This document shows positions 78-14,716 of a stretch of DNA of 64,000 nt, piece after piece. The notes beneath the pieces are model-generated. The model ran no database searches. It saw only the letters and a list, made by a program, of their open reading frames with translations, and was not told the DNA's origin. Position numbers and translations under genes: made by a program. The stretch comes from Cyclobacteriaceae bacterium (GTDB taxonomy: Bacteria > Bacteroidota > Bacteroidia > Cytophagales > Cyclobacteriaceae). Where the stretch lies: NCBI GenBank assembly GCA_025455015.1, contig JALONI010000026.1:1-64000 (forward strand). The letters are read 5' to 3'. Numbering within the stretch: the first letter of the stretch is position 1; each line of letters begins with the position of its first letter.

Positions 78-2822
78 CTAAACAGGGTCGAGCGTTCCGG
101 TGCCATCCACATCAATGGCCCGGCAGGAAAAGGGTTCTTCCCGCGTACCTTTGAACACGGTGTTGATCCCGTAGTTTCCCAACGCCAAATCCATATCCCC
201 GTCCCCATCGGCATCCATAGGCATCACCTTCTGCCAAAAGCCCTTAGCCGCGCTTAGTCCGGTGTTTTTGGTTACGTCCCGAAACCCCTTGCCGCGTTGG
301 TTTTGATAGACAGACACCGGCATGAAGTCTCCCGCCAGCACTAAGTCAACCCATGTGTCGCCATCTACATCAACCCAACAGGCCGAACGCACAATGCCAA
401 GATGGAGCGCCTGACCCCGGCCGGCCACTATCTCGATCGGTTGAAAGGCGCCCTGGTTGTTTTGAAGCAGAAAGCTTTTGTCCGGCAAGGGATAGCGTTG
501 GGGATAGCCTCCCGCGCCCACAAAAATGTCCGTGTCGCCATCCTGATCATAGTCGGCCGCGGCCACGCAGGAGCCGCTGTACACCTCGTTCGGCAAGTGG
601 GCCCGTTGGAAGTTACCCTGCCCGTCATTCAGGTAGAGACGGTCTTGATAATAAGGCATTTGCGCCATAAACGAATTGCCACCGCTAACGACATATAAGT
701 CAGGGTGGTGGTCATTATTGACATCCAAAAAAATGGCGGCAGCATCTTCATACACGGCCTCGTTGGCCGGAAATTTATAGGTGATCCACTGCCGGTTGGC
801 TTGTTGCAACCACAGCAGGGGACGCTTTCCCTTGGTGCCACCGATGTAAACATCCTCCAGGCCATTGCCATCCACATCGGCAACGGCTGCCACGGGTCCG
901 GCCACCGACTGTTTTCCTAGCAGCAGGGGTTCATAGTTAAAATCGTCATGATCGGATTGCGTTGGGGTGTGTTGAAACCCCAGAGAGTCTGTGACATCTG
1001 TCAGTAAGACACCTTCCGCTGGGGCGGAAGGGATTTGGGGTACGGAGGCTTGGGTGTACGTGAGCGTGATTTGTTGGTTGGCGGCAACCTTGTCTATTCG
1101 TTGTGTACGTCCATCGGGCCATGTCACCAGCACATCCACGTGTTCTGCTTCGCCCAGGCCGAGGTGGAGTATCTGCGACACCGATGACTGATAGCCGCGG
1201 GTGCTGTGTTTGGTTACTTTTTGCCGGAGTACGTCCTTTTCAAACAGGGCTACGGATGCTCCTTCGCCAAAGCGATTTTCGGCCGGCCCCTCCAGTTTCA
1301 CGTGCAGGAAGTGACCCGCTGCGCGAGGCGATTGATTTTCCAACAGGAAGGCGGGTTCATCGAGATTGTTCACCACCAAGTCGAGGTCGCCATCGTGATC
1401 CAAATCAGCATAGGCAGCGCCATTTGAGTAAGAAGGTTTGTCTTCCAGCCAGGACGTTGTCTCATCGGCAAATTGGAGATCACCGGTATTCGAGAAGAAT
1501 CGATTTTGCAGGTGCGCGCCCGGCAAGTTGCGTAGCATGTCGGCTATGTTTTCGCGTTCGTTGCCTTTTTCGACCATCCCTTTTCGGTGCTGAAACGTAT
1601 AAATCGCAAAATCTCGATCCGTGATATTTTTAAAGTAGCCGTTTGTGATAAAGACATCGCGGTGTGTGTTATTGTCGAAATCGGCCAGCAATACCGACCA
1701 ACTCCAGTCGGTTTGATACATTTCCGTAGCTATCCCGATTTCGGCAAAGTGTCCCTTGCCTGCATTGATTTGCAGCATATTGCGCATAAACGAAGGTTGG
1801 TATCCAAGTTGGCGGGCCATTTCATAGTGGTTGTAGCTCACCGGCCCGCTCAGTTTTTTCTGCCGCTCGTTGTCGGGTGGCATCATGTCGGCAACCAGTA
1901 CATCGGCCCAGCCATCATTGTTTAAATCCGCGGCATCGGCCCCCATGCTAAAGTGGCTGGTATGACGCAGCCGGATGGCTGCTTCGTCTTTAAAAAACGC
2001 CCCTTGTTGATTGATGTACAAAACATCATTGAACACATAGTCGTTGGCCACGTAAATGTCCGTCCAGCCATCGTCATTGAAATCGCCCAACGCCAATCCC
2101 AGGCCATATCCTTCCAGACGGATGCCGCGCGCGTGTGACACATCAAAAAACTTTCCGTGCCGGTTTTCAAATAATTGATCGGTGCTGTAGGCGCTGCCAT
2201 CGGTGAGGGGAGGGGTCAGCACGGTGGCATCGCGGTCCTTGTTGGAATGGTTCATCAGGTACATGTCCAGGTCTCCGTCCCGATCAAAATCAAAAAACGC
2301 AGCTTGTGTTGAGAAGCGGGTGGAAGCCAGGCCAAATTCCTGTGCGCGTTCCGTGAACGTGCCGTTGGTATTGTTGATGAACAACAGATTTTTGCGGATG
2401 GTCGAATCTCGGTGACCGGACACGCACACGTAAATGTCAAGCCATCCATCGGCATTGACATCGGCCATGGTAACCCCGGTTGCCCATTGCCATGTGCCCA
2501 CCCCGGCCTGATCGGTAATGTCTTCAAATTGCAGATTCCCTTTGTTTCGATACAGGCGTGACGAAGCCGTGTTTCCGGTAAAGTACACATCTTCGAGGCC
2601 ATCGTTGTCAATATCGCCTATCGCTACGCCACCCCCGTTGTACATGTACTCGAAATCAAACACGTTAAACGAGTCTGACGCCACCAGGGTGTTTTGAAAT
2701 TCGAGGCCGCTTCGCTCGGGTGGAATCAAGACGAATCTTTTGGGAGAGTGGCCGCACGACATCATGGCGAGCAGGGCGATGAAAACCGGCAAAAGGCAGG
2801 TGAGGAGGGGGTGTCTGTTCAT
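78..2822 (-). CDS. FG-GAP/VCBS-repeat, ASPIC/UnbV-domain lipoprotein, interrupted by an in-frame TAG
   Basis: Surface or secreted protein of the FG-GAP/ASPIC-UnbV family; the molecular role is unknown. The N-terminus is a lipoprotein-type signal (hydrophobic stretch ending MMSC near residue 23). Many DxDxDGxxD calcium-loop repeats form a propeller (for example DIDNDGLEDVYF near residue 70), and an ASPIC/UnbV segment (GEGASVALF to VTWPDGR) lies near residues 535-600, followed by more repeats. Reading stops at TAG 78-80 after GTLDPV. The same frame then continues to the window edge as SRFVQGKEWPLHTRDQLM and further family-like sequence, which matches the usual continuation after the 'DGxGxLDPxL' motif. 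So this is probably a longer gene (about 1,100 residues in relatives) with a Leu-to-stop change. I am sure of the family and fairly sure of the break. Confidence 0.85.
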   Translation of the reverse strand: MNRHPLLTCLLPVFIALLAMMSCGHSPKRFVLIPPERSGLEFQNTLVASDSFNVFDFEYMYNGGGVAIGDIDNDGLEDVYFTGNTASSRLYRNKGNLQFEDITDQAGVGTWQWATGVTMADVNADGWLDIYVCVSGHRDSTIRKNLLFINNTNGTFTERAQEFGLASTRFSTQAAFFDFDRDGDLDMYLMNHSNKDRDATVLTPPLTDGSAYSTDQLFENRHGKFFDVSHARGIRLEGYGLGLALGDFNDDGWTDIYVANDYVFNDVLYINQQGAFFKDEAAIRLRHTSHFSMGADAADLNNDGWADVLVADMMPPDNERQKKLSGPVSYNHYEMARQLGYQPSFMRNMLQINAGKGHFAEIGIATEMYQTDWSWSVLLADFDNNTHRDVFITNGYFKNITDRDFAIYTFQHRKGMVEKGNERENIADMLRNLPGAHLQNRFFSNTGDLQFADETTSWLEDKPSYSNGAAYADLDHDGDLDLVVNNLDEPAFLLENQSPRAAGHFLHVKLEGPAENRFGEGASVALFEKDVLRQKVTKHSTRGYQSSVSQILHLGLGEAEHVDVLVTWPDGRTQRIDKVAANQQITLTYTQASVPQIPSAPAEGVLLTDVTDSLGFQHTPTQSDHDDFNYEPLLLGKQSVAGPVAAVADVDGNGLEDVYIGGTKGKRPLLWLQQANRQWITYKFPANEAVYEDAAAIFLDVNNDHHPDLYVVSGGNSFMAQMPYYQDRLYLNDGQGNFQRAHLPNEVYSGSCVAAADYDQDGDTDIFVGAGGYPQRYPLPDKSFLLQNNQGAFQPIEIVAGRGQALHLGIVRSACWVDVDGDTWVDLVLAGDFMPVSVYQNQRGKGFRDVTKNTGLSAAKGFWQKVMPMDADGDGDMDLALGNYGINTVFKGTREEPFSCRAIDVDGTGTLDPV

Positions 2823-3218
2823 GGTAAAGTGCTACTTCGACCTCGAGTAACCAAATTCAAGCATCAGAGGCAACGGCAGGTTTGTAAACCAGCTATCAGA
2901 TTGAACTTGGACGGTCATTTACCGGGATCAACTAGGGTTTTACTGATCGCAAGATAGAATGCCGATGTCCATCTGGGAAGTTAACCTTTTCGACAAAAGC
3001 AGCCTGATTTGTTGCGTGATAACAGATTGACTTGAGGGAAAAAGGCTCAATTGAAGTTCAAAAACGCGTTGACGGTGCGTCTCAAGCGTATAAAAAGGCA
3101 TTTTTGGCACCGCCTTTTTGCGGTTGAAAACCGAAAAAAGATTTGGAAATTTGCCAGCAATCGTATGCGAGCCATAGTTTCGTGCCAACGATTTCAAAAA
3201 ATCAAAACAAACAAGCTT
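2823..3218. other. 396-bp intergenic region between divergent surface-protein genes
   Basis: No convincing gene or RNA seen. The left part must carry the promoter of the minus-strand FG-GAP gene and the right part that of the plus-strand lipoprotein. A weak plus-strand match to the Bacteroidota promoter pattern is TTTG at 3150-3153 and TAGTTTCG at 3175-3182, but the spacer (21 nt) and the last bases deviate. An ORF extends upstream from the lipoprotein frame, but it lacks a signal-like start and is basic and low quality. Confidence 0.4.
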
Positions 3219-4550
3219 ATGGTTTCTGTAAAACGGTTTCTTTTCTTGGGGCTGCTCGCAGGGTGCGGCTTTTTCATAGACGGCTGTAGCGATGACGAAG
3301 CTCCTGTTTTTGAGGCGCCCTCTATTGCAGTAACAGCGGATAACTCGCAGCCGTATCCGGGCGATGTGGTGAATTTCACGATTGCAGTGACGGGCCCCGG
3401 GGGGTTAAATGAGGTGACGCTGAACGGGAACGCAATCAAAACGTACGATCTGGCCTCTGCGGTGACGGAAGATGAGTTTCAATTTGCATACACTGTGCCC
3501 CCCAATGCTATTTTGGGGCCGTTGGCGCTGGAATTTGGCGTATCCGACAGACAAGCTGCGGCTAAAACGGGGGAGTTTACCAGCGACTTGACAATACAAA
3601 ACCCTGATTTTCGGGGTGCTCCTGTTGTACTTTTCAACTTCCAGACCGCTATTCCCAATAATCAGGTTAGTGCTATCACCAGAGATGGTGGCTCTCAGGT
3701 TTGGGAGAACGCCTATGAGCTCAACTTAAACGCCACCGATCCGGCCAACGCAGCCAATAAAGTCCTACAGGCTGACCGCAAGGGTGCGCACGAGTGGCGC
3801 TTTCAAGGCGGTGGGGCCGTGCAGATTGAGTTTGCAAATGCTATTTCGGAAGACGAAATCCAAAAATTGGTTTCTGGTGAGCGTGTATTACAAATGAACG
3901 TGTACTTTAAAGAAGTGCCGAAATTGGTCACTGCTCATAGAGACCCCGCAGCCCCGGATGGGCCTACCAAAAGGTCTAACTTGGACGTTTCCTGGAGATT
4001 GGATTCTACCGCGCGTTTTAGACTTCCGCTTACCGCTGCCACCAAAAAGGGGTGGAAGCATGAGTTAGGCGATAGTTTGGTAAGGGCCATTCCCGTTACA
4101 TTAGAGATTGGAAACAAAGCCCGGTGGGCGTGGAATGGGGGCGATGTAACCGGTAAGAAGTTTTATTTGACGGGCTCGATCACTACGGCCAACGCATGGG
4201 AAACGGTGACTTTTACGCGATTAACGGGTACGTTTACGCGCGATGAAACTCAGGTGGGAGGCAGAAGATGGGTGCGAACAAATTTCAGACCGGCCGCGAA
4301 AACATCTACGGCACCTGCTGCTTTGCAGGACCCTGCCGTGGGATTGGATCAGATAAACTACTTCGCGATGATAATAAACAACCGTATTACAAGCTACCGA
4401 AATTTTGGCGGGTGGTTTGAAATGCCTGGCGATGGAAACGGGTGGAGCGCTAGCAACGCCATCGGAATTAGCGATGATCACAATACTTACCTCATTGATA
4501 ATATTCGAACTATCAATGCGGCAGATTTCGACAAGAATCCGAATAATTGA
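3219..4550 (+). CDS. Surface lipoprotein with Ig-like N-domain, possible glycan-binding protein
   Basis: Likely outer-surface lipoprotein. The start at 3219 is chosen because it opens a lipoprotein signal (MVSVKRFLFLGLL, then FIDGC-SDDE, with negative residues after Cys as in Bacteroidota surface export signals). Residues about 35-120 look like an Ig/TIG fold (SIAVTADNSQPYPGDVVNF). The C-terminal two thirds resemble a galactose-binding-like or SGBP-type fold: FNF at its start and a closing DNIRTI strand after GISDDHNTYL. No catalytic motif is seen. It precedes a T9SS S74 protein and a T9SS glycoside hydrolase on the same strand, so a carbohydrate-capture role is plausible but inferred from context. 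The family assignment is weak. Confidence 0.6.
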   Translation: MVSVKRFLFLGLLAGCGFFIDGCSDDEAPVFEAPSIAVTADNSQPYPGDVVNFTIAVTGPGGLNEVTLNGNAIKTYDLASAVTEDEFQFAYTVPPNAILGPLALEFGVSDRQAAAKTGEFTSDLTIQNPDFRGAPVVLFNFQTAIPNNQVSAITRDGGSQVWENAYELNLNATDPANAANKVLQADRKGAHEWRFQGGGAVQIEFANAISEDEIQKLVSGERVLQMNVYFKEVPKLVTAHRDPAAPDGPTKRSNLDVSWRLDSTARFRLPLTAATKKGWKHELGDSLVRAIPVTLEIGNKARWAWNGGDVTGKKFYLTGSITTANAWETVTFTRLTGTFTRDETQVGGRRWVRTNFRPAAKTSTAPAALQDPAVGLDQINYFAMIINNRITSYRNFGGWFEMPGDGNGWSASNAIGISDDHNTYLIDNIRTINAADFDKNPNN

Positions 4551-4624
4551 GAATGGGTAGTTAATTGTTGTTTTGAGGCCAATCATTTTGATTGGCCTTT
4601 TTTTGTCACTTAAAAAATACATTT

Positions 4625-5992
4625 ATGAAAACGCAGATTTTTAGAATGTCTTTAGTGCTTATTGGTTTGTTTAGCTTATCACTAACTGTAAACGGACAAC
4701 CAACGAATCCGTACACTTTTCCGATTAATGGAATTAGTGTAACTGCTCCATACGGTGCAGGACAAATTGAGACAATTATGCCGACAACCTTCGTCCCCGG
4801 TACGGGAACGGTGCCAACGGGAAACACAAGCAGGATGAATTTCAAATTTGTAAGACAGGGTGAGTACTATGATGCAATGACGATTATACGAAACGATATC
4901 ATTCCGGGCATACCGAGCATCAACTTGAGCATAAATGGTACTATGTCAAGTTCGGTTTTAAGCGCATTATCCCTGAATATTGGGTCGATAACCTCAACTG
5001 GCGCGTTTTCGACTACAAGTTCGATTTCTGCTGGCGGTGCAATATCATCACAAAGTACGCTTAGCGGCACAGGCCTGACGCTCAGCAGCCTTTCAGGTTC
5101 AGGAAACAGGATGGTTATTGCAAATGCATCTGGAGTCTTGAGCACTTTACCTATTCCTGCTGGTGATAATTTAGGTAATCACACAGCTACAACCACGCTC
5201 AATTTAAGCAATCAAGATATCTCGACAGTTAGGGCAATCTTCTTACAATCAAATAATACAATTGATGGTTCTACATCTCTTGGGGGGATTCGAATAACCC
5301 CAAGAGTCGGTATCAATACATTGCCTGACAACCTATATACACTTAGAATTCTTGGAAATGCGTTCGCCTCTAGCGGTTCGTGGCTCGTAAGTTCTGATGA
5401 AAAATTGAAGACAGACGTCAAAGGTAAACCATATGGGCTAAATGATATTACTAAAATCAACAGCTATTCTTACAAATACAAGGACGATAAGACTGCCATG
5501 CGGAAAATCGGTGTAATGGCTCAAGAAGTGAGAAAAGTGTTTCCAGAGCTAGTTTTCGAAGGTGGTGATGGGACACTTGGAGTCGACTATCTGAGCTTTG
5601 TGCCTATCTTGATAGAGGCCTTAAAGGAACAACAACAGCGGATCAATGCTTTGGAAGAGATAATTTTAAACAAAGCAGGAGAATCGCAGTCAAGCCGCTT
5701 GTCGACTTCGGTAGAACACTTAGTCTCTGAGTTATTTGATGGTTATCCAAATCCATCCAGTGCAGCGGTAGAGATACCAACCTTTGTTGCCAATGGTGAT
5801 GGAGACGCCAAGCTTGTATTGTTTGATGGAAGCGGAAATAGAATTAAGGAGTTTACGCTAAGGCAAGGTTCAAATTTGACTCGAATTGATTTTGGTTCAA
5901 CTTCCCGGGCAAGGTATTGTATTACTCCCTCATCATTGCCGGTAAGAAGATTGGCACAAAAAGACTCATTGTCGATTAGTGTTGTTAGCTGA
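4625..5992 (+). CDS. Tail-fibre-like secreted protein with S74 intramolecular-chaperone domain; T9SS signal frameshifted
   Basis: Start 4625 opens a Sec signal peptide (MKTQIFRMSLVLIGLFSLSL, ending NGQ). Residues about 30-250 are Ser/Thr/Gly-rich, low-complexity and fibre-like. Residues about 257-345 are a clear peptidase S74 chaperone domain (SSDEKLKTDV, YKYKDDKTAMRKIGVMAQEV, VDYLSFVPILIEALKEQQ). Residues about 372 onward start a type A T9SS sorting domain (GYPNPSS...). The reading frame breaks at the CCC of 5904-5906: as read, it ends in unrelated sequence at 5992. Adding one base at that run restores SPGKVLYYSLIIAGKKIG then TKRLIVD and stop TAG 5977-5979, a canonical T9SS end. The gene is AT-rich relative to its neighbours, which suggests separate ancestry. 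Confidence 0.8.
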   Translation: MKTQIFRMSLVLIGLFSLSLTVNGQPTNPYTFPINGISVTAPYGAGQIETIMPTTFVPGTGTVPTGNTSRMNFKFVRQGEYYDAMTIIRNDIIPGIPSINLSINGTMSSSVLSALSLNIGSITSTGAFSTTSSISAGGAISSQSTLSGTGLTLSSLSGSGNRMVIANASGVLSTLPIPAGDNLGNHTATTTLNLSNQDISTVRAIFLQSNNTIDGSTSLGGIRITPRVGINTLPDNLYTLRILGNAFASSGSWLVSSDEKLKTDVKGKPYGLNDITKINSYSYKYKDDKTAMRKIGVMAQEVRKVFPELVFEGGDGTLGVDYLSFVPILIEALKEQQQRINALEEIILNKAGESQSSRLSTSVEHLVSELFDGYPNPSSAAVEIPTFVANGDGDAKLVLFDGSGNRIKEFTLRQGSNLTRIDFGSTSRARYCITPSSLPVRRLAQKDSLSISVVS

Positions 5993-6049
5993 GTTCATCC
6001 CCGATTGCATACGGATCAGAGTATTTCAGAAGAAAATTTGGATTAAGCC

Positions 6050-8104
6050 ATGAGAAAATGGATGTTGGTGATAATGTTGGGAGCGACAGTTTTTGATTTA
6101 CGATCGCAAGTCCAGCCCGTGACGATCCAGGGAAGCCCGGGTTCGTTTCAGTTGATCCGCAATGGACAGCCCTATTTTGTGAAAGGAGGCGGGGGCGACC
6201 GACAGGTGGCAACCCTCGCAGCAGCGGGGGGCAACTCCATGCGTACGTGGGGTACAGATGCTAATACGATCCGGTTTTTGGATGAAGCCCACGCCCACGG
6301 CATCACCGTGTTGATGGGCCTGTGGGTGGCCCATGAAGCTCACGGATTTGACTATAATAACACTACGGCCGTGCAGGCGCAGTTGGAAGGATTTCGGACC
6401 TGGGTGCGCATGTATAAAGATCATCCGGCCGTTTTGGCGTGGGGCGTAGGCAATGAGGTGGAACTGGGGCTCACCACGTACAATCCGAAGGTTTGGAATG
6501 CCATCAACGATATTGCGCTCATGATCAAGCAGGAAGACGGCAACCATCCCACCTTGACCGTCACAGCCGGCATTGATGTGGCCAAGGCCCAGTTGATCAT
6601 GAGCCGGGCCCCCGCGCTGGATATGCTGGGCGTAAATGCCTACGGGGGAATCAATGGTGTTTACCAGACGTTGCAAACTGCGGGGTGGGCCAAGCCATAC
6701 ATGATCACCGAATGGGGACCCAATGGACAATGGGAGTCGCCCACGACCGCCTGGGGCGCACCCATTGAGGCCACCAGCACTGAAAAAGCCGCCCTGTACA
6801 AGTCGCGCTACGAAACAGCCATTGCGGCACGCGCGGGGGCTTGTGTAGGCTCCTATGTTTTTTTGTGGTCGGACAAGTTTGAGCAGACGTCTACGTGGTA
6901 CGGTCTGTTTTTGCCCAATAGTTCGGACCGGACGCAAGCGGTGGAAGAAATGCAATACAGCTGGAGCGGCACGTATCCGGCCAACCGCGCACCACGCATC
7001 ACGCTCGCAACCGTTGAGGGAAAGGTTGCCAGCCAAAGCCCGGTCATCACCAAAGACAACGGGAACGTAGTCTCCGTAACCGCCACCGATCCCGATGGAG
7101 ACCCGCTGACATTTGAATTCTTGATTCAGCCGGATATCCAGATCGGCCTGGTCAATGACCCGCCCGCCACCATTCCTTACCTGCCGGGGTTGATTGAGTC
7201 TGCGTCCGGGTCGACCGCATCGTTCCGCGCACCCGCAGACCAGCGCAACTACCGGGTTTTTGTGTTCATCCGCGATGGAAAGGGAAACGCGGCCACGGTC
7301 AACATCCCCTTTCGGGTGGCGCTGAACCCCATGGTAAGTTCGGATCCTTCCATCATTTTTCCGTCCAAAGACTTGTACATACGCAACGGGGAGTTTGCCA
7401 ACAACTCGTTCGGCTTGTCCGATCGCCTTCGGCTGCAAGCCCGGTTCGCCACGACCGAGGGCAACACCCGCGAAACGTACCTTGGCTTTTACGTGGCTCC
7501 CATCGACCAGCGGATTGTTCACGTTTGGCTGGAGTTGTATGGCAATGGTACGCAAGGGACGCAAGCGGCCATTTTCCCCTTGCCGCAAAATGACTGGACA
7601 GAGTCCATGGCGTGGGGCAACCGAAAATCCACTACCCGCGATGCGCTCGACACAGTGACGCTGGACGGAGCGGGAGATCGGTACGTGCGGTGGGATGTCA
7701 CTTCGTATGTGAACACCGCGTTGTTTTTTGGGAATGACTCGGTCTCCTTTGTGTTACGCCATCTGAATGAAAGCGGAAACCCGTCCAATTGGCTGTCGCG
7801 GGAAGCGCGCCCCTTTCCGCCACGGCTGGTTTTTGAGCTAACGGAAGGCGACATTGTGCTTTCGCTGGATGAAATCGAAGAGCCTGTGGATGTATATCCC
7901 AATCCTGCAGGCGACAAAATTTTCTTACAAACCGTGCGCTCGGTAGATGCCATCATGGTCTCGGATATGTGGGGGCGGCCGCAGCACGTGCCATGTCATC
8001 TCTCCGATAAATCGGTGGACGTGTCAGCACTGCCGGTAGGTACCTACCTCGTGCGCGTTGTTTCGGGAAAAAAGCAGATGATCAAAAAGGTGGTCAAGCG
8101 GTAG
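6050..8104 (+). CDS. Secreted TIM-barrel glycoside hydrolase with CBM96/DNRLRE-like domain and T9SS signal
   Basis: Extracellular glycan-cleaving or transglycosylating enzyme, exported by Sec and T9SS. Residues 1-20 are a signal peptide. Residues about 22-310 form a clan A-type barrel resembling GH2/GH5/GH72 catalytic domains: GNEVE with Glu136 as likely acid/base and TEWGPNGQWE with Glu221 as likely nucleophile. Residues about 315-435 look Ig/cadherin-like (VTATDPDGDPLTF). About 440-610 is a beta-rich carbohydrate-binding segment like DNRLRE/CBM96. From about 612 there is a complete type A sorting domain (VDVYPNPAGDKIFL to KKQMIKKVVKR), in contrast to the broken one upstream. The exact GH family and substrate cannot be named from sequence alone. 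Confidence 0.8.
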   Translation: MRKWMLVIMLGATVFDLRSQVQPVTIQGSPGSFQLIRNGQPYFVKGGGGDRQVATLAAAGGNSMRTWGTDANTIRFLDEAHAHGITVLMGLWVAHEAHGFDYNNTTAVQAQLEGFRTWVRMYKDHPAVLAWGVGNEVELGLTTYNPKVWNAINDIALMIKQEDGNHPTLTVTAGIDVAKAQLIMSRAPALDMLGVNAYGGINGVYQTLQTAGWAKPYMITEWGPNGQWESPTTAWGAPIEATSTEKAALYKSRYETAIAARAGACVGSYVFLWSDKFEQTSTWYGLFLPNSSDRTQAVEEMQYSWSGTYPANRAPRITLATVEGKVASQSPVITKDNGNVVSVTATDPDGDPLTFEFLIQPDIQIGLVNDPPATIPYLPGLIESASGSTASFRAPADQRNYRVFVFIRDGKGNAATVNIPFRVALNPMVSSDPSIIFPSKDLYIRNGEFANNSFGLSDRLRLQARFATTEGNTRETYLGFYVAPIDQRIVHVWLELYGNGTQGTQAAIFPLPQNDWTESMAWGNRKSTTRDALDTVTLDGAGDRYVRWDVTSYVNTALFFGNDSVSFVLRHLNESGNPSNWLSREARPFPPRLVFELTEGDIVLSLDEIEEPVDVYPNPAGDKIFLQTVRSVDAIMVSDMWGRPQHVPCHLSDKSVDVSALPVGTYLVRVVSGKKQMIKKVVKR

Positions 8105-8204: not shown

Positions 8205-10136
8205 TCAGGCTTTCATCACGGGTGCCGGTGATAAGGTCACGGGCTCCAGAATAATGCTATCCCAACCCGAGCTGCCTTTTTTCCGCGGTGTTTTCATGGC
8301 CGTCTTCACTTTTTTCAGGAAAGACCAGCAGGTGCTTTGACGCAATTGCAGTTGATCGGCCAAATCCACGGAAGTGATGTCACCTTTTCGGTTGTAAATC
8401 AGAAAAATGGCATAAAAGGCTTTGTCAAGTGGTAACTTACACTTGTGCAGAAGGGTATAGGCGGTGGGCGACTCTTCGTATCGGCAACGCGTACACCGTT
8501 TTGACAAAATGGTTTTTCCATCGCAGAAATGCGTATGCCCACACTTTCGGCAATGGTATCCTTCGCCCCATTTCATGTCGGCCAGAAAACGCAAACATGC
8601 CAAGTGGTCCGGATAGGTCTTGGAGAACTCTTCAAATCCCACCTCTTTTGAGAGCACACGCTCTTCCGTGATTTTCTTGATGTTTTTCTTCAACGCCCAA
8701 TTGTCCAGGTCGAGCAACTGATTCATTTTGTTGATTTGTTCAGCCTGTTGTTTTAGCTTTTCATTGGCTTCCACGATTTCGGCTGCCCGTATCCTTACTT
8801 CGTTTTCGAGCTCTTGGTTGAGCTTATCTTTTAGTAGTTGATTTTCCTGAAGCTGCACCACCAGTTGCTGCTGCGCCCTCTGCCGTGTTTTGAGCTGTGC
8901 CAGCAGCTTCTCCTGGGCCCAAATTTTCAGGCTTTTGGTGTGATTCAGGCGTTCGCCCAGTGCGTACGACAACACCGCCAACTCAATGGCAAAACCAATT
9001 TGCAGACTGAAGAACGGAAGGGCGCTTCCAAAAAACGAAATGCCCAATTTGCGCAAGACCAAAAAAGCAATGCCAATGATGATGAACGAATGAGCCACAA
9101 CAAAGTACCGAGCGGCTTTTTGGCCTTTTCGGGCGATGGATATGCCCAGTAGGTAGATGCTTAAGAACGGAAGGATGTAGAAATGATAGCTGGGCGATTG
9201 AGCGCTGTACCAGGCAAAAAAAAGCAGATAGAGAACCGACAGCCCCATCAGCCACTTGAGCCATTGGTGTGCGCGAGGGAAGTAGTTTTTGAGTTGGATA
9301 AAGTTTACCGAGTAGAAATAAAATGACAGCACCAAAAATGCGGGCGAGTAGTTGGCCACCAACTCGTTCACCATCGGCAGGCGAGGCCACAAATACTCAA
9401 ATCCGAGCATGTCTTCACTGAGGAAAAGAAGCGAACAGTTCAGCACGTACAGCGTGTAAAACAGATACAGCCGTTCGCGCACGAACAGGAAGATGATCAG
9501 GTTTGTGATCAGGGAAATCAGAATCATGCCGTAGAATATCCCCAGCCCATAATACTCATTCTTTGCGTTGGACAGGAAGTCACGCTCGCTTCGGATTTTG
9601 AATAGGAGCGTGGTTTTTGACGTAGAGCGAACGCGCGCCACAACCACGAGACTTTTGTCGCCCGGCTTGAATCGTAGCGGAAACAGGTAGTTTTTGAAGT
9701 GAAAGTCTTTTTGGTCAAAGGGCACATCAGCCCCCACCTCTTCGTCAATAAACGCGGGTGCGCCCCCGCGAAGGACAGCCACGGTCAGGCTGTTCGTGTG
9801 GGGGTCAATGAACTCGAGGTAAATCGGATTGGCCTCCGTAAATGAGGTGGCCATGATCTCAAAAAGCACCCAATAGGTAGAAGTCGGGTTTTCGACATGG
9901 TCGGTCGCTACGCGCAGCGCAGGAATGTGTTTCTCGGGCTGCAGCGTCTCGAACGTCAGCGCTCCGGTTTTGTCTTCCAGCACGACAAAATATTGCGTAG
10001 GCACCAAGTCGTTGTCCGTGTCCGTATACAGGCTGATCGGGGTAGCAGGCAGTTGTTGGGAGGATGCCGAAAACGGAAGCCACCCAACCATCAACAGCAC
10101 ACATATCCCCACGGCCGGTAACGTATTCTTACGCAT
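8205..10136 (-). CDS. 7TM-DISM receptor fused to IS1595-type transposase zinc-ribbon/helix domain
   Basis: Membrane sensor with an unexpected cytoplasmic end. Start 10136 is chosen because it gives a signal peptide (MRKNTLPAVGICVLLMVGWL, ending ASSQQ). Residues about 30-165 look like the extracytoplasmic 7TMR-DISMED2 beta domain; about 170-385 carry seven hydrophobic helices (for example YGLGIFYGMILISLI, LYLFYTLYVLNCSLLFL); about 390-500 are a long coiled coil. Residues 529-643 match the N-terminal zinc ribbon and helices of IS1595-family transposases: CRKC (529/532), CTRC (548/551), then KLPLDKAFYAIFLIYN and VDLADQLQLRQSTCWSFLKK. The protein stops where the transposase DDE domain would begin, so it is not an active transposase. 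Normal outputs for DISM receptors (kinase, cyclase, LytTR) are absent. Role inferred: membrane-tethered DNA or protein binding. Confidence 0.85.
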   Translation of the reverse strand: MRKNTLPAVGICVLLMVGWLPFSASSQQLPATPISLYTDTDNDLVPTQYFVVLEDKTGALTFETLQPEKHIPALRVATDHVENPTSTYWVLFEIMATSFTEANPIYLEFIDPHTNSLTVAVLRGGAPAFIDEEVGADVPFDQKDFHFKNYLFPLRFKPGDKSLVVVARVRSTSKTTLLFKIRSERDFLSNAKNEYYGLGIFYGMILISLITNLIIFLFVRERLYLFYTLYVLNCSLLFLSEDMLGFEYLWPRLPMVNELVANYSPAFLVLSFYFYSVNFIQLKNYFPRAHQWLKWLMGLSVLYLLFFAWYSAQSPSYHFYILPFLSIYLLGISIARKGQKAARYFVVAHSFIIIGIAFLVLRKLGISFFGSALPFFSLQIGFAIELAVLSYALGERLNHTKSLKIWAQEKLLAQLKTRQRAQQQLVVQLQENQLLKDKLNQELENEVRIRAAEIVEANEKLKQQAEQINKMNQLLDLDNWALKKNIKKITEERVLSKEVGFEEFSKTYPDHLACLRFLADMKWGEGYHCRKCGHTHFCDGKTILSKRCTRCRYEESPTAYTLLHKCKLPLDKAFYAIFLIYNRKGDITSVDLADQLQLRQSTCWSFLKKVKTAMKTPRKKGSSGWDSIILEPVTLSPAPVMKA

Positions 10137-10298: not shown

Positions 10299-12110
10299 TC
10301 AATTCTTCAACATCCATTTGTTATTCGCACGCTCCACATCGGCCGTCTCTCGCTTCGTATCAATTTCGACCGACACAATGTTGCCGGCATTTTTGCTCCA
10401 GGAAAAGGCATACTCGGTAGCCACCCAAAACCAGGGTTTTAGTTCCGTCACCGGCTTGTCAAATGCTTTGCTTCCCAGTGTCTCGTTGGTGGGGATGTAA
10501 ATCAGATCGGTTGTGCCATCGGCATAGGTCAGCGTCACCTCCACGGGCATGGGAAATTCACCTTTGCGTTCCAGCGTAATGGCCATCTCGTTGCCTGTAA
10601 CGACCGATTTCACGGCATAGTCCACGTGTTTGGTGGAGCCGATCAGGTAATTGGCATGCCATTTCAACTGGAGGCCTGCAACGCTTTCCATCACGCGCAC
10701 AAAGTCATTCGGTTCCGGGTGTCTGAATTTCCATTGTTCATAGTAACGCTTTATGCCCTTCCAAAAAAGCCGCTCGCCCATGATGTACCTCACGTGCGTG
10801 AGCATGATGGAACCTTTGGTGTACGATGATACCGTATAGGCGGCATTGGTCGAAAAGATGTCGCTGTGTTGTGTGGCGGGCTCATCCGTGCCTGATTTGA
10901 TGAATTTCTCAAAACCGTCCAGCGTGGATGCCTGCGGGTTGGTGAGCTTGCGGTCAAACACGTGGTTTCCGGCTTCGGCTGTGGCAAAGGTGGTAAAGCC
11001 TTCGTCCATCCAGGCATACAAAGCTTCATTGCTGGCCAGCACCATCTGAAACCAACTGTGCGCCACTTCGTGAATCATGGTGCCGGCCGTGCCTTGAAAT
11101 CCCACTTCACCCAGGATGAGGGTGCACATGGGGTACTCCATGCCGCCATCGCCTCCTTGAATCACCGAATAGGTGCTGTAGGGATACTTGCCAAAACGGT
11201 CGTCCATAAACTGAAATAGTTTGACGCCCACCGGAAGCAGGTCAGGCCAATGTTTTGTTTTTTCGCCCGGCTGATAAAAGAAATGCAACTCGGGCCCGTT
11301 GGGTACTTGCACACGCTCGTGCTTGTATTGCGGGTCGGCTGCCCAGGCAAAGTCAATGACATTGGGTGCGCTAAAGTGCCATGTTAGGTTGCCCTTAGGG
11401 CGGGTGACGGTGGTTCCTGGTGGCTCATAACCGTGGCCCACCTCTGCGGCATTTTGCAACACGCCTGTGCCGGCCACCACGTAGTCGCTTGGCAATTCCA
11501 GTGTCACTTCGTAGTTGCCCCACACACCATGAAACTCCCGCGCCACATACTGATACGGATGCCACCCTTGGTGGTCGTACTCGGCAATTTTGGGATACCA
11601 CTGTGTCATGGAGTAGGCGATGCCTTCGCGGTTGTCGCGGCCCGACCGCCTGATTTGGATGGGCACCTGGCTTTCAAACACCACTTCCAGCACGGTGGAC
11701 ATTTGGGGAAGGAGGGGCGCAGGCAAGTGTACTTCCAAAATGGTGCCCGTAAGTTGCGTCTTGGTTTCTTTTCCATCTTGCGTAAGCGACCGGATCTTTT
11801 GGTAGCCTATTTCGCCCTCGGTCAGCCTGCTGATGCGGTCCTGAACCCTGCGGTCGGGATCGGGTAACGAGCGCGACCTTACATCCATCATGCTGCCGGG
11901 CTGAAAGGCATTCCAATACAGGTGAAAAAAGAGCTTGGTGAGCGTATCAGGCGAATTGTTTACGTAACGGATCCGTTCTTGCCCTTGGATGAGGTGCTTT
12001 TTGGTATCTAACGAGGCGTTGATCGTGTAATCGGCCTGCTGTTGCCAACGCGGCTGCCCGTAGGCCAGCACCGGGCTGCAGAAAAGAAAAAATAAGAGGG
12101 CTTTTTTCAT
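10299..12110 (-). CDS. Secreted M1-family (gluzincin) aminopeptidase
   Basis: Zinc metallopeptidase predicted to trim peptides in the periplasm or outside the cell. Start 12110 (rather than an upstream ATG) gives a signal peptide MKKALLFFLFCSPVLAYGQ. An N-terminal beta-saddle domain covers about residues 35-290. The catalytic domain carries GGMEYP (about 322), HEVAH-W (about 347) and the downstream zinc-ligand Glu in WMDEGFTTF (about 370), so the active site is complete. At 603 residues it lacks the long C-terminal helical domain of PepN, as in many Bacteroidota M1 proteins. It lies in the minus-strand run between the outer-membrane protein and the 7TM receptor, with 162 bp before the latter. 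Confidence 0.85.
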   Translation of the reverse strand: MKKALLFFLFCSPVLAYGQPRWQQQADYTINASLDTKKHLIQGQERIRYVNNSPDTLTKLFFHLYWNAFQPGSMMDVRSRSLPDPDRRVQDRISRLTEGEIGYQKIRSLTQDGKETKTQLTGTILEVHLPAPLLPQMSTVLEVVFESQVPIQIRRSGRDNREGIAYSMTQWYPKIAEYDHQGWHPYQYVAREFHGVWGNYEVTLELPSDYVVAGTGVLQNAAEVGHGYEPPGTTVTRPKGNLTWHFSAPNVIDFAWAADPQYKHERVQVPNGPELHFFYQPGEKTKHWPDLLPVGVKLFQFMDDRFGKYPYSTYSVIQGGDGGMEYPMCTLILGEVGFQGTAGTMIHEVAHSWFQMVLASNEALYAWMDEGFTTFATAEAGNHVFDRKLTNPQASTLDGFEKFIKSGTDEPATQHSDIFSTNAAYTVSSYTKGSIMLTHVRYIMGERLFWKGIKRYYEQWKFRHPEPNDFVRVMESVAGLQLKWHANYLIGSTKHVDYAVKSVVTGNEMAITLERKGEFPMPVEVTLTYADGTTDLIYIPTNETLGSKAFDKPVTELKPWFWVATEYAFSWSKNAGNIVSVEIDTKRETADVERANNKWMLKN

Positions 12111-12164
12111 GCGATTGAGATGATGCCCCAAGGTATCAAAACGGGCATACGCACCCAACCGTTT

Positions 12165-13100
12165 TTATTTCAAGTTGAAGGTCTTGGAAAGGCCGAGGGA
12201 GAAAAAGCCCGTGGGGTCGGTTTCGATGGGGGTTACCACTTTGCGCGGCAATACCAGCGAGTAGCTGGCGATCACGTTCCAGCTTTTTTTGGTCAGCGAA
12301 AGGGGGAAGACAAAATTATGGCTCATGATGCCAAAGCCGGTGATTGGATACTCGGTGGGCAGCCTGCGTATCACCCGCCTGAGCCGTTCCATACCGCTGG
12401 TGACCACCTCGTATTCATCATTGCCCAAAATGAGGGTATAGCCCGGGTTAAAGGCTATGCGATCCAGCCCCCACCATGTTTCCTTTCGGAGGTTGAGCAC
12501 AAACCCCGGCATCAGGCGATGCCCTGTGTCGCGACCAAACAGAAAAGAGTAATCCAGGCGAAGGCTGGCGTATTTGAAGTCCAGAAAATTGGAAACGCTG
12601 ACATTGTCAGTAAACGGAATGTCGGTTTCAGGTCCCCGGTAGGTGTAGAAGAAATGGCTGTACTCCACCATGCTCATCAGCCTTTTGCTCCAGGGCTGTA
12701 AGTAACCCACGGAGGCCACCGTGAGGTAGTGCTTGGGGGCAAACTCCGGGCTCCAATAGCCGGACACATCAAGATAGGCACCCGACCGGTGGTAGTAGCT
12801 GGCTCCGTAGGTCACGCCAAACTGGTCAAAGCCCAGCGCGCGGGCTTGCGAGGTGAGATTGCTGCTATAGCCTGCCCGCAACAGAAGTTGCGATGGCAAA
12901 CGGGCCCCCGACAACTGGACCAGGCTGTCGATCAGCGACAGGATGTTGGTGCGCTCACCGGAGTTTAACAACGAGTCGAGCTCTGCCAAGTCCTTGTCAT
13001 GCTTGAGCAGGTAGGCCAGCGAGTCGGGGTTGATTTTCTGCGCGCTGCCATACGCGAACCCGAGGCAAAACAGGGAGCAGAGTAGGGTGGAGGGTCGCAC
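12165..13100 (-). CDS. Predicted outer-membrane beta-barrel protein
   Basis: I do not recognise the family. A signal peptide (MRPSTLLCSLFCLGFAYGSAQ) is followed by a short helical, acidic segment (residues about 22-70) and then alternating amphipathic strands rich in Tyr/Phe/Trp (SYYHRSGAYLDVSGYWSPEF, LRLDYSFLFG), ending in aromatic-hydrophobic GLSKTFNLK as in porin-like barrels. It sits 25 bp downstream of the Spy-like gene and 54 bp upstream of the M1 peptidase, so it is probably co-transcribed with the sigma-factor cluster. Confidence 0.55.
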   Translation of the reverse strand: MRPSTLLCSLFCLGFAYGSAQKINPDSLAYLLKHDKDLAELDSLLNSGERTNILSLIDSLVQLSGARLPSQLLLRAGYSSNLTSQARALGFDQFGVTYGASYYHRSGAYLDVSGYWSPEFAPKHYLTVASVGYLQPWSKRLMSMVEYSHFFYTYRGPETDIPFTDNVSVSNFLDFKYASLRLDYSFLFGRDTGHRLMPGFVLNLRKETWWGLDRIAFNPGYTLILGNDEYEVVTSGMERLRRVIRRLPTEYPITGFGIMSHNFVFPLSLTKKSWNVIASYSLVLPRKVVTPIETDPTGFFSLGLSKTFNLK

Positions 13101-13125
13101 GGGGGCCGCGATTAGATCAAGCCCC

Positions 13126-13662
13126 TCAGTTGCGCTGCCGCAGCCGTTGGCGTTGCTGCACGTTTTCTCTGCGCTGCTGCATTAACCTGCGCTGCTGGAT
13201 CTGGTTTAAAATAAGTTTGTTGAAATCGCCTTCGGCTTTCCGCAAGGCCAGCATTTGTTGGGCCGAGATAACTTTTAAGATGCGATCTGAGTAGTCTCGT
13301 TCCAAGTCCAGTTCTTGCTGTTTTACGCGCAGCCCCAAATCAAGTACTCGTTTCTGTTGGTCCGGGTCGGGATTGGCAGCGTCCAGCCCTTTGCGCGCAT
13401 CGATCAACTGCTGGCGTACTTCGCGTCTTTTCTCCGCATACTCGCGGTACACCGGCCAAAATTTTTCAGCCTGCGCGGGTGTGAGGCCGAGTTTATCGGT
13501 GATGTAGGCAATACGCAAGTTCTGGATCTTCTCTTGCGCTCTCGGGTCTTGCGGCACTTCGTCCAGGGCACCCTCGTCTTGGGCCTGCGCCCCGGGCGCA
13601 GCGGCCAGCAGGAGCCACGCGCAGGCCAGTACCGGAATCCATTGTTTCATCATTTTTTTCAT
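13126..13662 (-). CDS. Spy/CpxP-like periplasmic protein (putative sensor of ECF-type sigma factor)
   Basis: Small periplasmic helical protein. Signal peptide MKKMMKQWIPVLACAWLLLA ending AQAQ; then residues about 40-178 are almost wholly charged helices. The segment LTPAQAEKFWPVYREYAEKR resembles the repeated LTxxQ motif of Spy/CpxP/ZraP chaperones and of Bacteroidota proteins annotated as sensors of ECF sigma factors. The C-terminus is Gln/Arg-rich (RRLMQQRRENVQQRQRLRQ). It follows the sigma and anti-sigma genes by 36 bp, which supports a stress-sensing or chaperone role, but that is inference. Confidence 0.65.
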   Translation of the reverse strand: MKKMMKQWIPVLACAWLLLAAAPGAQAQDEGALDEVPQDPRAQEKIQNLRIAYITDKLGLTPAQAEKFWPVYREYAEKRREVRQQLIDARKGLDAANPDPDQQKRVLDLGLRVKQQELDLERDYSDRILKVISAQQMLALRKAEGDFNKLILNQIQQRRLMQQRRENVQQRQRLRQRN

Positions 13663-13698
13663 TTTTTTCGTTGCTATTTTTGCCTGTACTCGGCACCG

Positions 13699-14112
13699 TT
13701 ACGGAAGTTCATCGCCATCCCAAAACTCATCCTCGGGCGCGGAGGTGCTCAAAATATCCTCGTACACAACCTCTTCCAATTCATCGGAGTCTACCTCGGT
13801 CCAACTAATTGCGTCCACAAGTTCCTCGGCTTCCATGTCAGCCTCTTCCAGGTAGGCTACCAAGTCGGTGGTTTCTATTTTTCCCAATTGATCCTCCACG
13901 CTGCCTTGCGGGCCGCCCCACCACCAAATACTTGCCACTACGGCTACCACGCCTGCTACACCCAACGCATACCGCAGCACCGGCAGCCCCCAGGCGGGGG
14001 CCAGGTCAGTCGTGCTACCGGAGGTGCGGGCTTGTATCATGCCCGGCAGCTTTTCGAAGTAGCCATCGGGCACGTCAAAAATATTCTTCTTGGGTACGTC
14101 TTCCAGTTTCAT
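13699..14112 (-). CDS. Single-pass membrane protein, likely anti-sigma partner of the adjacent ECF factor
   Basis: Start 14112 opens MKLEDVPKKNIFDVPDGYFEKL, a pattern common in small Bacteroidota proteins encoded beside ECF sigma genes. One transmembrane helix (ALGVAGVVAVVASIWWW) follows a cytosolic N-terminal half, and the remaining periplasmic part is very acidic (YLEEADMEAEELVDAI). No zinc-binding HxxxCxxC anti-sigma motif is present. Located 34 bp after the sigma gene and before the Spy-like gene; the anti-sigma role rests on topology and position. Confidence 0.6.
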   Translation of the reverse strand: MKLEDVPKKNIFDVPDGYFEKLPGMIQARTSGSTTDLAPAWGLPVLRYALGVAGVVAVVASIWWWGGPQGSVEDQLGKIETTDLVAYLEEADMEAEELVDAISWTEVDSDELEEVVYEDILSTSAPEDEFWDGDELP

Positions 14113-14146
14113 GGCTATTCGACTTTTTTGCTGGTGCAAGGTTTAA

Positions 14147-14716
14147 CTAGTGGCTCAGATATTCCTCTATTTTCTTCACCGCATGGTGATAGCTGGCTTT
14201 GAGGGCACCCACGCTGGTGTTGGTCACTTCTGACATGTCTTCGTAGCTCATTTCTTCAAAGTACTTCATGTTGAACACAAGTCTCTGTTTGTCAGGAAGT
14301 TTAAGAATTGCTTTTTGCAGCTTTTTCTGGATTTCATCCCCGGACAGATCGGGGGCGGTATCGATTTTTCGGCTCAAGAGGTTGCTCACGTCTTCAATGG
14401 GCAGAAAAAAGCGCCTTCGCTTCTTATTCAGAAACGTGAGGCATTCATTGGTGGCAATGCGGAAAATCCAGGTGTACAATTGGGCGTCTTCGCGAAAGGT
14501 GCCAATGTATTTGTGCACTTTGATGAATACCTCTTGGGTGAGGTCGTTGGCATCGTCATGGTCGATCACCATTTTTCGCACCAGCCAGTACACGCGCTGT
14601 TGGTAGGCACGCACCAACAGGTTAAATCCATAGCTGGAGGTCTCCGGATTTCGGATTTTGGCGAGTAGGTCTTTGTCTTCCAAGGGGGCGAAGCTGGGGC
14701 TTAGACGGCCAGCCAC
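14147..14716 (-). CDS. ECF-type RNA polymerase sigma factor
   Basis: Directs RNA polymerase to a stress or envelope regulon. Region 2 is visible at residues about 28-100 (VYWLVRKMVIDHDDANDLTQ, EVFIKVHKYIGTFRE, TWIFRIATNECL), and region 4 at about 130-185 (LPDKQRLVFNMKYFEEMSYE, then a helix-turn-helix GALKASYHHAVKKIEEYL). The first codon is GTG (14714-14716); an in-frame ATG alternative is not seen nearby. It heads a same-strand run with a putative anti-sigma, Spy-like protein, barrel protein and M1 peptidase. Confidence 0.88.
   Translation of the reverse strand: MAGRLSPSFAPLEDKDLLAKIRNPETSSYGFNLLVRAYQQRVYWLVRKMVIDHDDANDLTQEVFIKVHKYIGTFREDAQLYTWIFRIATNECLTFLNKKRRRFFLPIEDVSNLLSRKIDTAPDLSGDEIQKKLQKAILKLPDKQRLVFNMKYFEEMSYEDMSEVTNTSVGALKASYHHAVKKIEEYLSH

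Follow-up and report, generated by a model that had tools for sequence, protein, structure and literature searches.

A widespread family of 7TMR-DISM receptors with an IS1595 transposase-type end, predicted to regulate polysaccharide-utilisation loci of Bacteroidota

The window considered here is the whole stretch of 64,000 nucleotides analysed from contig JALONI010000026.1 of a Cyclobacteriaceae bacterium. On its minus strand it codes for a protein in which a sensor and a membrane domain of the 7TMR-DISM type are followed by a zinc ribbon and a helix-turn-helix (HTH) of the kind found in IS1595-family transposases. Its parts are as follows.

8205..10136, minus strand: receptor gene, 643 aa; the open reading frame singled out in a preliminary description of this DNA
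10059..10136, minus strand: N-terminal hydrophobic, signal-peptide-like stretch, residues 1-26, recognised by eye and modelled as a helix at 5-18
9594..9995, minus strand: DISMED2 periplasmic sensor with a RetS-sensor-like fold, residues 48-181 (PF07696 and Foldseek)
8949..9557, minus strand: 7TMR-DISM 7TM domain, residues 194-396 (PF07695)
8655..8948, minus strand: long helix or predicted coil from TM7 to the output, residues 397-494 (AlphaFold model)
8478..8600, minus strand: IS1595-type zinc ribbon, residues 513-553, C529-x2-C532 ... C548-x2-C551 (PF12760)
8277..8441, minus strand: IS1595 transposase N-terminal HTH, residues 566-620, with the helix LQLRQSTCWSF (NF033547)

Both DISM models match the protein well above their cut-offs, PF07696 over residues 48-181 (E 3.2e-12, 47 bits against a cut-off of 22) and PF07695 over residues 194-396 (E 1.6e-37, 129.9 bits against 29). 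The zinc-ribbon model PF12760 (513-553) scores 23.4 bits with the whole protein as query, below its cut-off of 25.4, and barely exceeds it with the C-terminal 181 residues alone (25.9 bits, E 9.7e-6). The NCBIfam model transpos_IS1595 (NF033547) aligns residues 566-620 with only positions 2-57 of its 215 (E 3.5e-7 for the whole protein and 6.3e-8 for the C-terminal piece), and its 30-33 bits fall under the cut-off of 75, as is to be expected of a match that is a fragment. Since this match stops at position 57 and just 92 residues follow the second CxxC, the catalytic part of the transposase is absent from the window receptor. The preliminary description had read the gene as a 7TM-DISM receptor ending in an IS1595 zinc ribbon and stopping before the catalytic domain, and had named these DISM and ribbon models as the check; all of them match, PF12760 above its cut-off on the C-terminal piece only, and the reading is upheld. 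No kinase, receiver, AraC-type, sigma or anti-sigma Pfam domain occurs in the window protein, and none appears in the Pfam listings of 49 members of its family. The reading frame and signature residues are intact, and the four ribbon cysteines are invariant in A2 and A3.

An AlphaFold model of the window receptor (49 alignment rows, mean pLDDT 81, pTM 0.60) predicts the order beta-sandwich sensor, membrane helices, long helix, ribbon and trihelical HTH. In this model TM7 continues as a single helix from 372 to 494, with pLDDT under 50 at 457-494; the C-terminal piece modelled alone has a mean pLDDT of 83, with the ribbon and HTH mostly above 87. Foldseek relates the sensor model to the RetS periplasmic domain (3jyb, E 1.4e-5), and its search with the C-terminal piece returned no match with E below 0.001. 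VIA-align of the HTH model gave middling matches to DNA-binding trihelical HTH and homeodomain folds (Z 5.0-5.6), the IstA transposase DNA-binding domain being among them (Z 5.0). The C-terminal module is usually basic, with a pI of 9.3 in the window protein and a family median of 9.1 (lowest 5.8).

A search with the C-terminal piece found a match in 121 of 196 same-family genomes, and at least 94 of the 196, counted from rows with open frames of that length, hold a match of receptor length. In a phylum-wide sample 52 of 395 genomes have a match, many of transposase frame length. A scan of genome contigs found 395 relatives, of which the best 80, a named set that leans to one clade and includes Pedobacter, Mucilaginibacter, Chryseolinea, Siphonobacter, Pinibacter and others, all had a receptor-length frame (580-688 residues). 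Among 49 family members scanned with HMMs, both DISM models match in all 49 and the zinc-ribbon model in 47 at E of 0.01 or less. The CxxC...CxxC signature is present in every one of 171 extracted receptors, followed by 70-108 residues after the second CxxC. Six of these genes had been extracted twice and the duplicates were dropped from the counts, leaving 165 distinct receptors; the receptor tree and the motif sets drew on 108 of them, those over 80% identical having been thinned out. The 87 neighbourhoods fetched from the same-family search come from its receptor-length rows, other rows being left out. Draft assemblies can produce fusions of this kind, but the joining of receptor and IS fragment here by misassembly or recent IS insertion has next to no probability and was rejected because the architecture is conserved: it recurs in the 165 distinct genes, those of complete genomes (L083, L084) included. 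The survey of relatives that the preliminary description proposed thus shows neither a one-off nor a misassembly.

A maximum-likelihood tree was built from 66 modules, 37 from receptors, 26 from transposases and three from short solo proteins. One branch, with support of 98/94, separates the receptor modules from all the others. The 37 were picked for spread from the 108 thinned receptors, two spurious ORFs were left out, and the tree is unrooted. As the receptor modules form one side of the branch, the topology fits a single capture of a transposase module by a receptor if the root lies among the transposases. The earlier suggestion that a transposase-type DNA-binding module serves as the output of a DISM receptor is supported. 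Among the matches listed, the nearest Bacteroidota transposases share about 45% identity with the module of the receptor.

The receptor family is tied to polysaccharide-utilisation loci (PULs), a link that the preliminary description did not make. A SusC gene lies in the downstream same-strand run of 110 of the 165 distinct receptors; for the remainder this run has listed glycosidases only (22/165) or neither (33/165). At least two downstream ORFs are in view for 164 distinct receptors, and 96 of these are followed directly by SusC on the same strand; for the other ORFs of these loci (150 aa or longer) the figure is 13 of 1,367. When the next three genes are taken together, 125/164 receptors have SusC or a listed glycosidase among them, but this is common for other ORFs too (474/1,367), so that only the count of SusC as next gene is sharply specific. 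For 19 other 7TMR-DISM genes in five genomes SusC is next in no case, and their C-termini, judged by eye, comprise 14 kinases, one NtrC-type output and four without an output. Receptor clades track the enzyme class of the locus (GH30, GH144-like or GH16), with 19 label changes on the tree against a shuffled mean of 56. The neighbouring clusters include TonB-plug SusC-like, SusD, GH30, GH16, GH3, GH5 and SusE-like proteins and one matching PF10091, which we take to be GH144-like (beta-1,2-glucan-type); one GH30 protein that was scanned reaches 413 bits with the BT3312 endo-1,6-beta-glucanase model, below its cut-off of 700. The family labels derive from HMMs built on clusters seen in these loci, and the label "none" therefore includes xylan-type loci. 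In clade D, three of 12 loci were checked and GH10 was found in all three and GH43 in one; the next gene lies on the opposite strand in 9 of the 12. The receptors of these loci (L183, L206, L214 and nine more) carry the helix RRETCW.

Upstream of the window receptor (10299-14716, minus strand) lies a run of a sigma factor, an LTXXQ-like protein and an M1 peptidase, and sigma/LTXXQ-type genes also precede the receptor in a Pedobacter subgroup. The preliminary description had placed the receptor at the end of a sigma-factor-led run: the run exists, but as a family feature it was discarded, with the sigma-factor cluster in 16 loci including the window and the LTXXQ-type companion in 16, mostly Pedobacter. 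It is no regular neighbour of the family and no functional tie was seen.

The gaps between receptor and SusC were searched de novo for motifs by expectation-maximisation, with a pass score of 8, in two sets: loci of the SusC plus GH30 class (clade A, a usable gap in 15 of 18 thinned rows) and of the SusC plus GH144 class (clade B, 43 of 46). The clade A motif, tG.tActaAAGCGTATcAAatt, is found in all 15 of its own training regions and in 1 of 43 clade B regions, 5 of 242 other intergenics and 2 of 12 upstreams of unlinked SusC genes in the same loci. The clade B motif, TtaaTGTTtTTtaagCGt.AaA, occurs in 38 of its 43 training regions, and in 1 of 15 clade A regions, 3 of 242 other intergenics and 1 of 12 unlinked SusC upstreams. 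Under two-fold hold-out, 14 of 15 clade A and 28 of 43 clade B held-out regions were refound, with none in 40 unlinked SusC upstreams (two genomes, 20 of 53 rows taken in each); on these 40 the full matrices gave 0 (clade A) and 1 (clade B). Four receptor-SusC gaps of the two control genomes score highly for their own clade's motif only, and column-permuted matrices passed a mean of 0 (A) and 0.28 (B) regions. High-scoring sites in the loci mostly lie between genes, in the sense orientation of SusC or of a first glycosidase gene, with a few inside genes or pointing elsewhere; sites also stand before separate GH30 genes in the Mucilaginibacter loci L059 and L083. A paired second site lies at 76-94 bp in 11 of 15 clade A regions; in clade B the distance is 63-67 bp, seen in 25 of 38 regions. 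Shifted control windows gave 0. Clades A and C have RQSTCW-type helices and an AAGCGTA core in common; clade B has mostly R.NTVW-type helices, and the left half of its motif differs. A strict promoter-like element, sought with what we take to be the Bacteroidota promoter consensus, lies downstream of the site in 10 of 15 clade A regions (1.25 of 15 in mononucleotide shuffles), the last site ending 30-54 bp upstream of it in these 10, and in 3 of 38 clade B regions. A de novo search of 52 upstream regions from the 12 clade D loci returned mainly start-codon-like patterns and no convincing motif. By eye, the receptor motifs are unlike the terminal inverted repeats found in some related IS1595 transposons, no clear repeat having emerged for several of the set, and an "IS-end" target is accordingly unsupported.

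In the window itself, a predicted site and a run of genes lie on the plus strand, convergent with the receptor.

3075..3092, plus strand: predicted operator GTGCGTCTCAAGCGTATA, the relatives' pattern with one mismatch
3151..3181, plus strand: weak promoter-like element TTG-N-TANNTTT with one mismatch, of low confidence; a second match starts at 3124
3219..4550, plus strand: predicted target gene 1, lipoprotein-like, with no Pfam match; its start was set at the ATG at 3219 and not at the mechanical TTG at 3051
4625..5992, plus strand: predicted target gene 2, with an S74 (endosialidase chaperone) domain (PF13884, E 2.7e-14)
6050..8104, plus strand: predicted target gene 3, GH2-type TIM barrel with CBM96 and a T9SS tail (PF02836, E 4e-5; PF24517, E 1.7e-23; PF18962, E 2.8e-8), convergent with the receptor gene

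The window receptor groups with L149, in a join of two long branches, and less firmly with L066 and L079. Three relatives from another family of the same order, L116 (in the same place as L149), L118 and L121, carry by eye GTGTGY...AAGYGTATA downstream of the receptor, and on these three the clade C pattern rests. In the 3.42 Mb genome of the window that pattern has a single site at up to one mismatch, 3075-3092 on the plus strand (reversed control 0), 5.1 kb from the 3' end of the receptor gene and 127 bases before the ATG at 3219. The site first arose in a scan with the clade A core that gave seven window matches at up to two mismatches. When the pattern is widened to fit the window, the site is the one exact match and the only match in the window at up to two mismatches, where 0.22 are expected; genome-wide at up to two mismatches there is no enrichment, with 13 sites for the pattern and 14 for its reversed control. 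Inspection by eye revealed no second site paired with it in the window. As this lone site precedes a glycosidase-containing run converging on the receptor, we lean towards predicted control of 3219-8104 by the window receptor through 3075-3092.

The receptor could instead be an orphan paralogue whose locus has been lost and which controls nothing nearby, the site at 3075 being coincidental, and we give this a considerable though lesser chance. No SusC or SusD match was found within the 64 kb window, and another receptor of this genome, its second, stands next to SusC/SusD with a clade B site before its SusC. About one site like 3075-3092 is expected per genome by chance, on an estimate that assumes uniform base composition, and the looser pattern is unenriched. 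Against this, the only such site in the genome falls 5.1 kb from the receptor and just before a run with a glycosidase, and the receptor has kept its frame and signature residues. Divergent from the predicted target run lies a 914-aa protein (78-2822, minus strand) with no NCBIfam match, in which we presume, by eye, VCBS-like repeats.

For the family as a whole, we consider it likely that the receptor works as a one-component transmembrane regulator that controls the transcription of polysaccharide-utilisation genes and has the captured DNA-binding end of a transposase as its output, and that the genes beside it are probably switched on directly from the membrane. A periplasmic glycan fragment would be bound by the DISMED2 domain, and the change relayed by the 7TM core along the long TM7/coil helix, which would hold the dimer. 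The IS1595-derived ribbon and HTH would then bind operator sites with the protein still in the membrane, and SusC, SusD and glycosidase genes would be activated from the bound operators. Of the preliminary description's one-protein DNA-binding sensor, the clade-specific conserved sites indirectly favour one-component DNA binding, and there is no sign of the general nucleoid binding that it had also entertained; nothing in the analysis points to the proteolytic release that it had raised as a possibility. A more speculative proposal, which we regard as rather doubtful, is that a receptor dimer or pair of dimers binds both operators of a pair at their fixed spacing (76-94 bp for GH30 loci, 63-67 bp for GH144-type loci) and pulls the promoter towards the inner membrane; the transposon-style binding of paired ends, captured once, would then have become a membrane-tethered sugar switch.

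Two other accounts concern how the conserved sites work. The protein might be a repressor that glycan frees from DNA and not an activator, for which the shortage of clear promoters downstream of clade B sites could speak; the activator-like position of the last clade A site relative to the promoter-like element makes this unlikely. It is quite improbable that a different regulator recognises the sites, or that they function in an RNA leader, with the receptor signalling by protein contact and its ribbon and HTH forming an interaction domain. The clade-specific motifs are inherited together with entire loci, so that any factor particular to a locus would produce such a pattern; however, the module keeps its four cysteines and its HTH and is usually basic, its recognition helix varies between clades in step with the motif, and sites also occur before the separate GH30 genes of the two Mucilaginibacter loci.

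The usual account of how polysaccharide utilisation is controlled in Bacteroidota invokes HTCS, ECF sigma/anti-sigma and SusR-type regulators. The receptor family would share with SusR the control of SusCD and glycosidase genes, but it differs from these types in having no kinase, receiver, AraC or sigma domain and in joining a 7TM sensor to a transposase-type output. With 7TMR-DISM proteins such as RetS it has the sensor and 7TM domain in common by HMM, and the sensor also by fold; the intracellular module that follows the 7TM domain is here a zinc ribbon and HTH in place of a kinase or cyclase. IS1595-family transposases have the same ribbon and N-terminal HTH, but they retain a catalytic domain that the receptors lack and fall on a separate branch. 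CadC/ToxR, ChiS and TfoS likewise combine a membrane sensor and a DNA-binding domain in one chain, DNA binding being a prediction in our case, but their DNA-binding domains are unrelated to that of the receptor, which occurs in a Bacteroidota SusCD context. ChiS and TfoS are described as responding to chitin (PMC11856585, PMC8092284), and the latter source mentions a 7TMR-DISM plus ChiS-DBD architecture in proteobacteria, which provides a precedent for a DNA-binding output on a DISM receptor. In the open-access literature we found no description of the present architecture or of a 7TMR-DISM PUL regulator, and met no transposase-type output, locus linkage or operators for DISM receptors.

The family adds a widespread candidate class of PUL regulator with its own predicted operator, linked to GH30 (beta-1,6-glucan-type) and GH144-like gene sets and, in three loci examined, to GH10/GH43 (xylan-type) genes. 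If the proposal is right, the DNA target and likely glycan would be predictable from sequence, for instance in Pedobacter, Mucilaginibacter and Chryseolinea, and the family would clearly exemplify, in bacteria, how the DNA-binding end of a transposase becomes the output of a receptor.

Short proteins of related make-up were also encountered. Four genomes of one family of the same class (loci L153, L154, L159 and L160) hold ORFs of 154-168 aa that are very similar in sequence; they combine a zinc ribbon and HTH of IS1595-like type, lack the catalytic domain and are possibly another domesticated DNA-binding end. L152 (5888-6445, plus strand) has a 185-aa protein with an IS1595 transposase-like start, located between SusD-type/glycosidase-like genes and a large sensor-like gene, that may be an IS remnant. 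In L156 (1194-1607, minus strand) a 137-aa solo ribbon and HTH protein has a receptor-like W-containing tail; in the first module tree, which included the two spurious ORFs, its module sits at the base of the side formed by the transposases.
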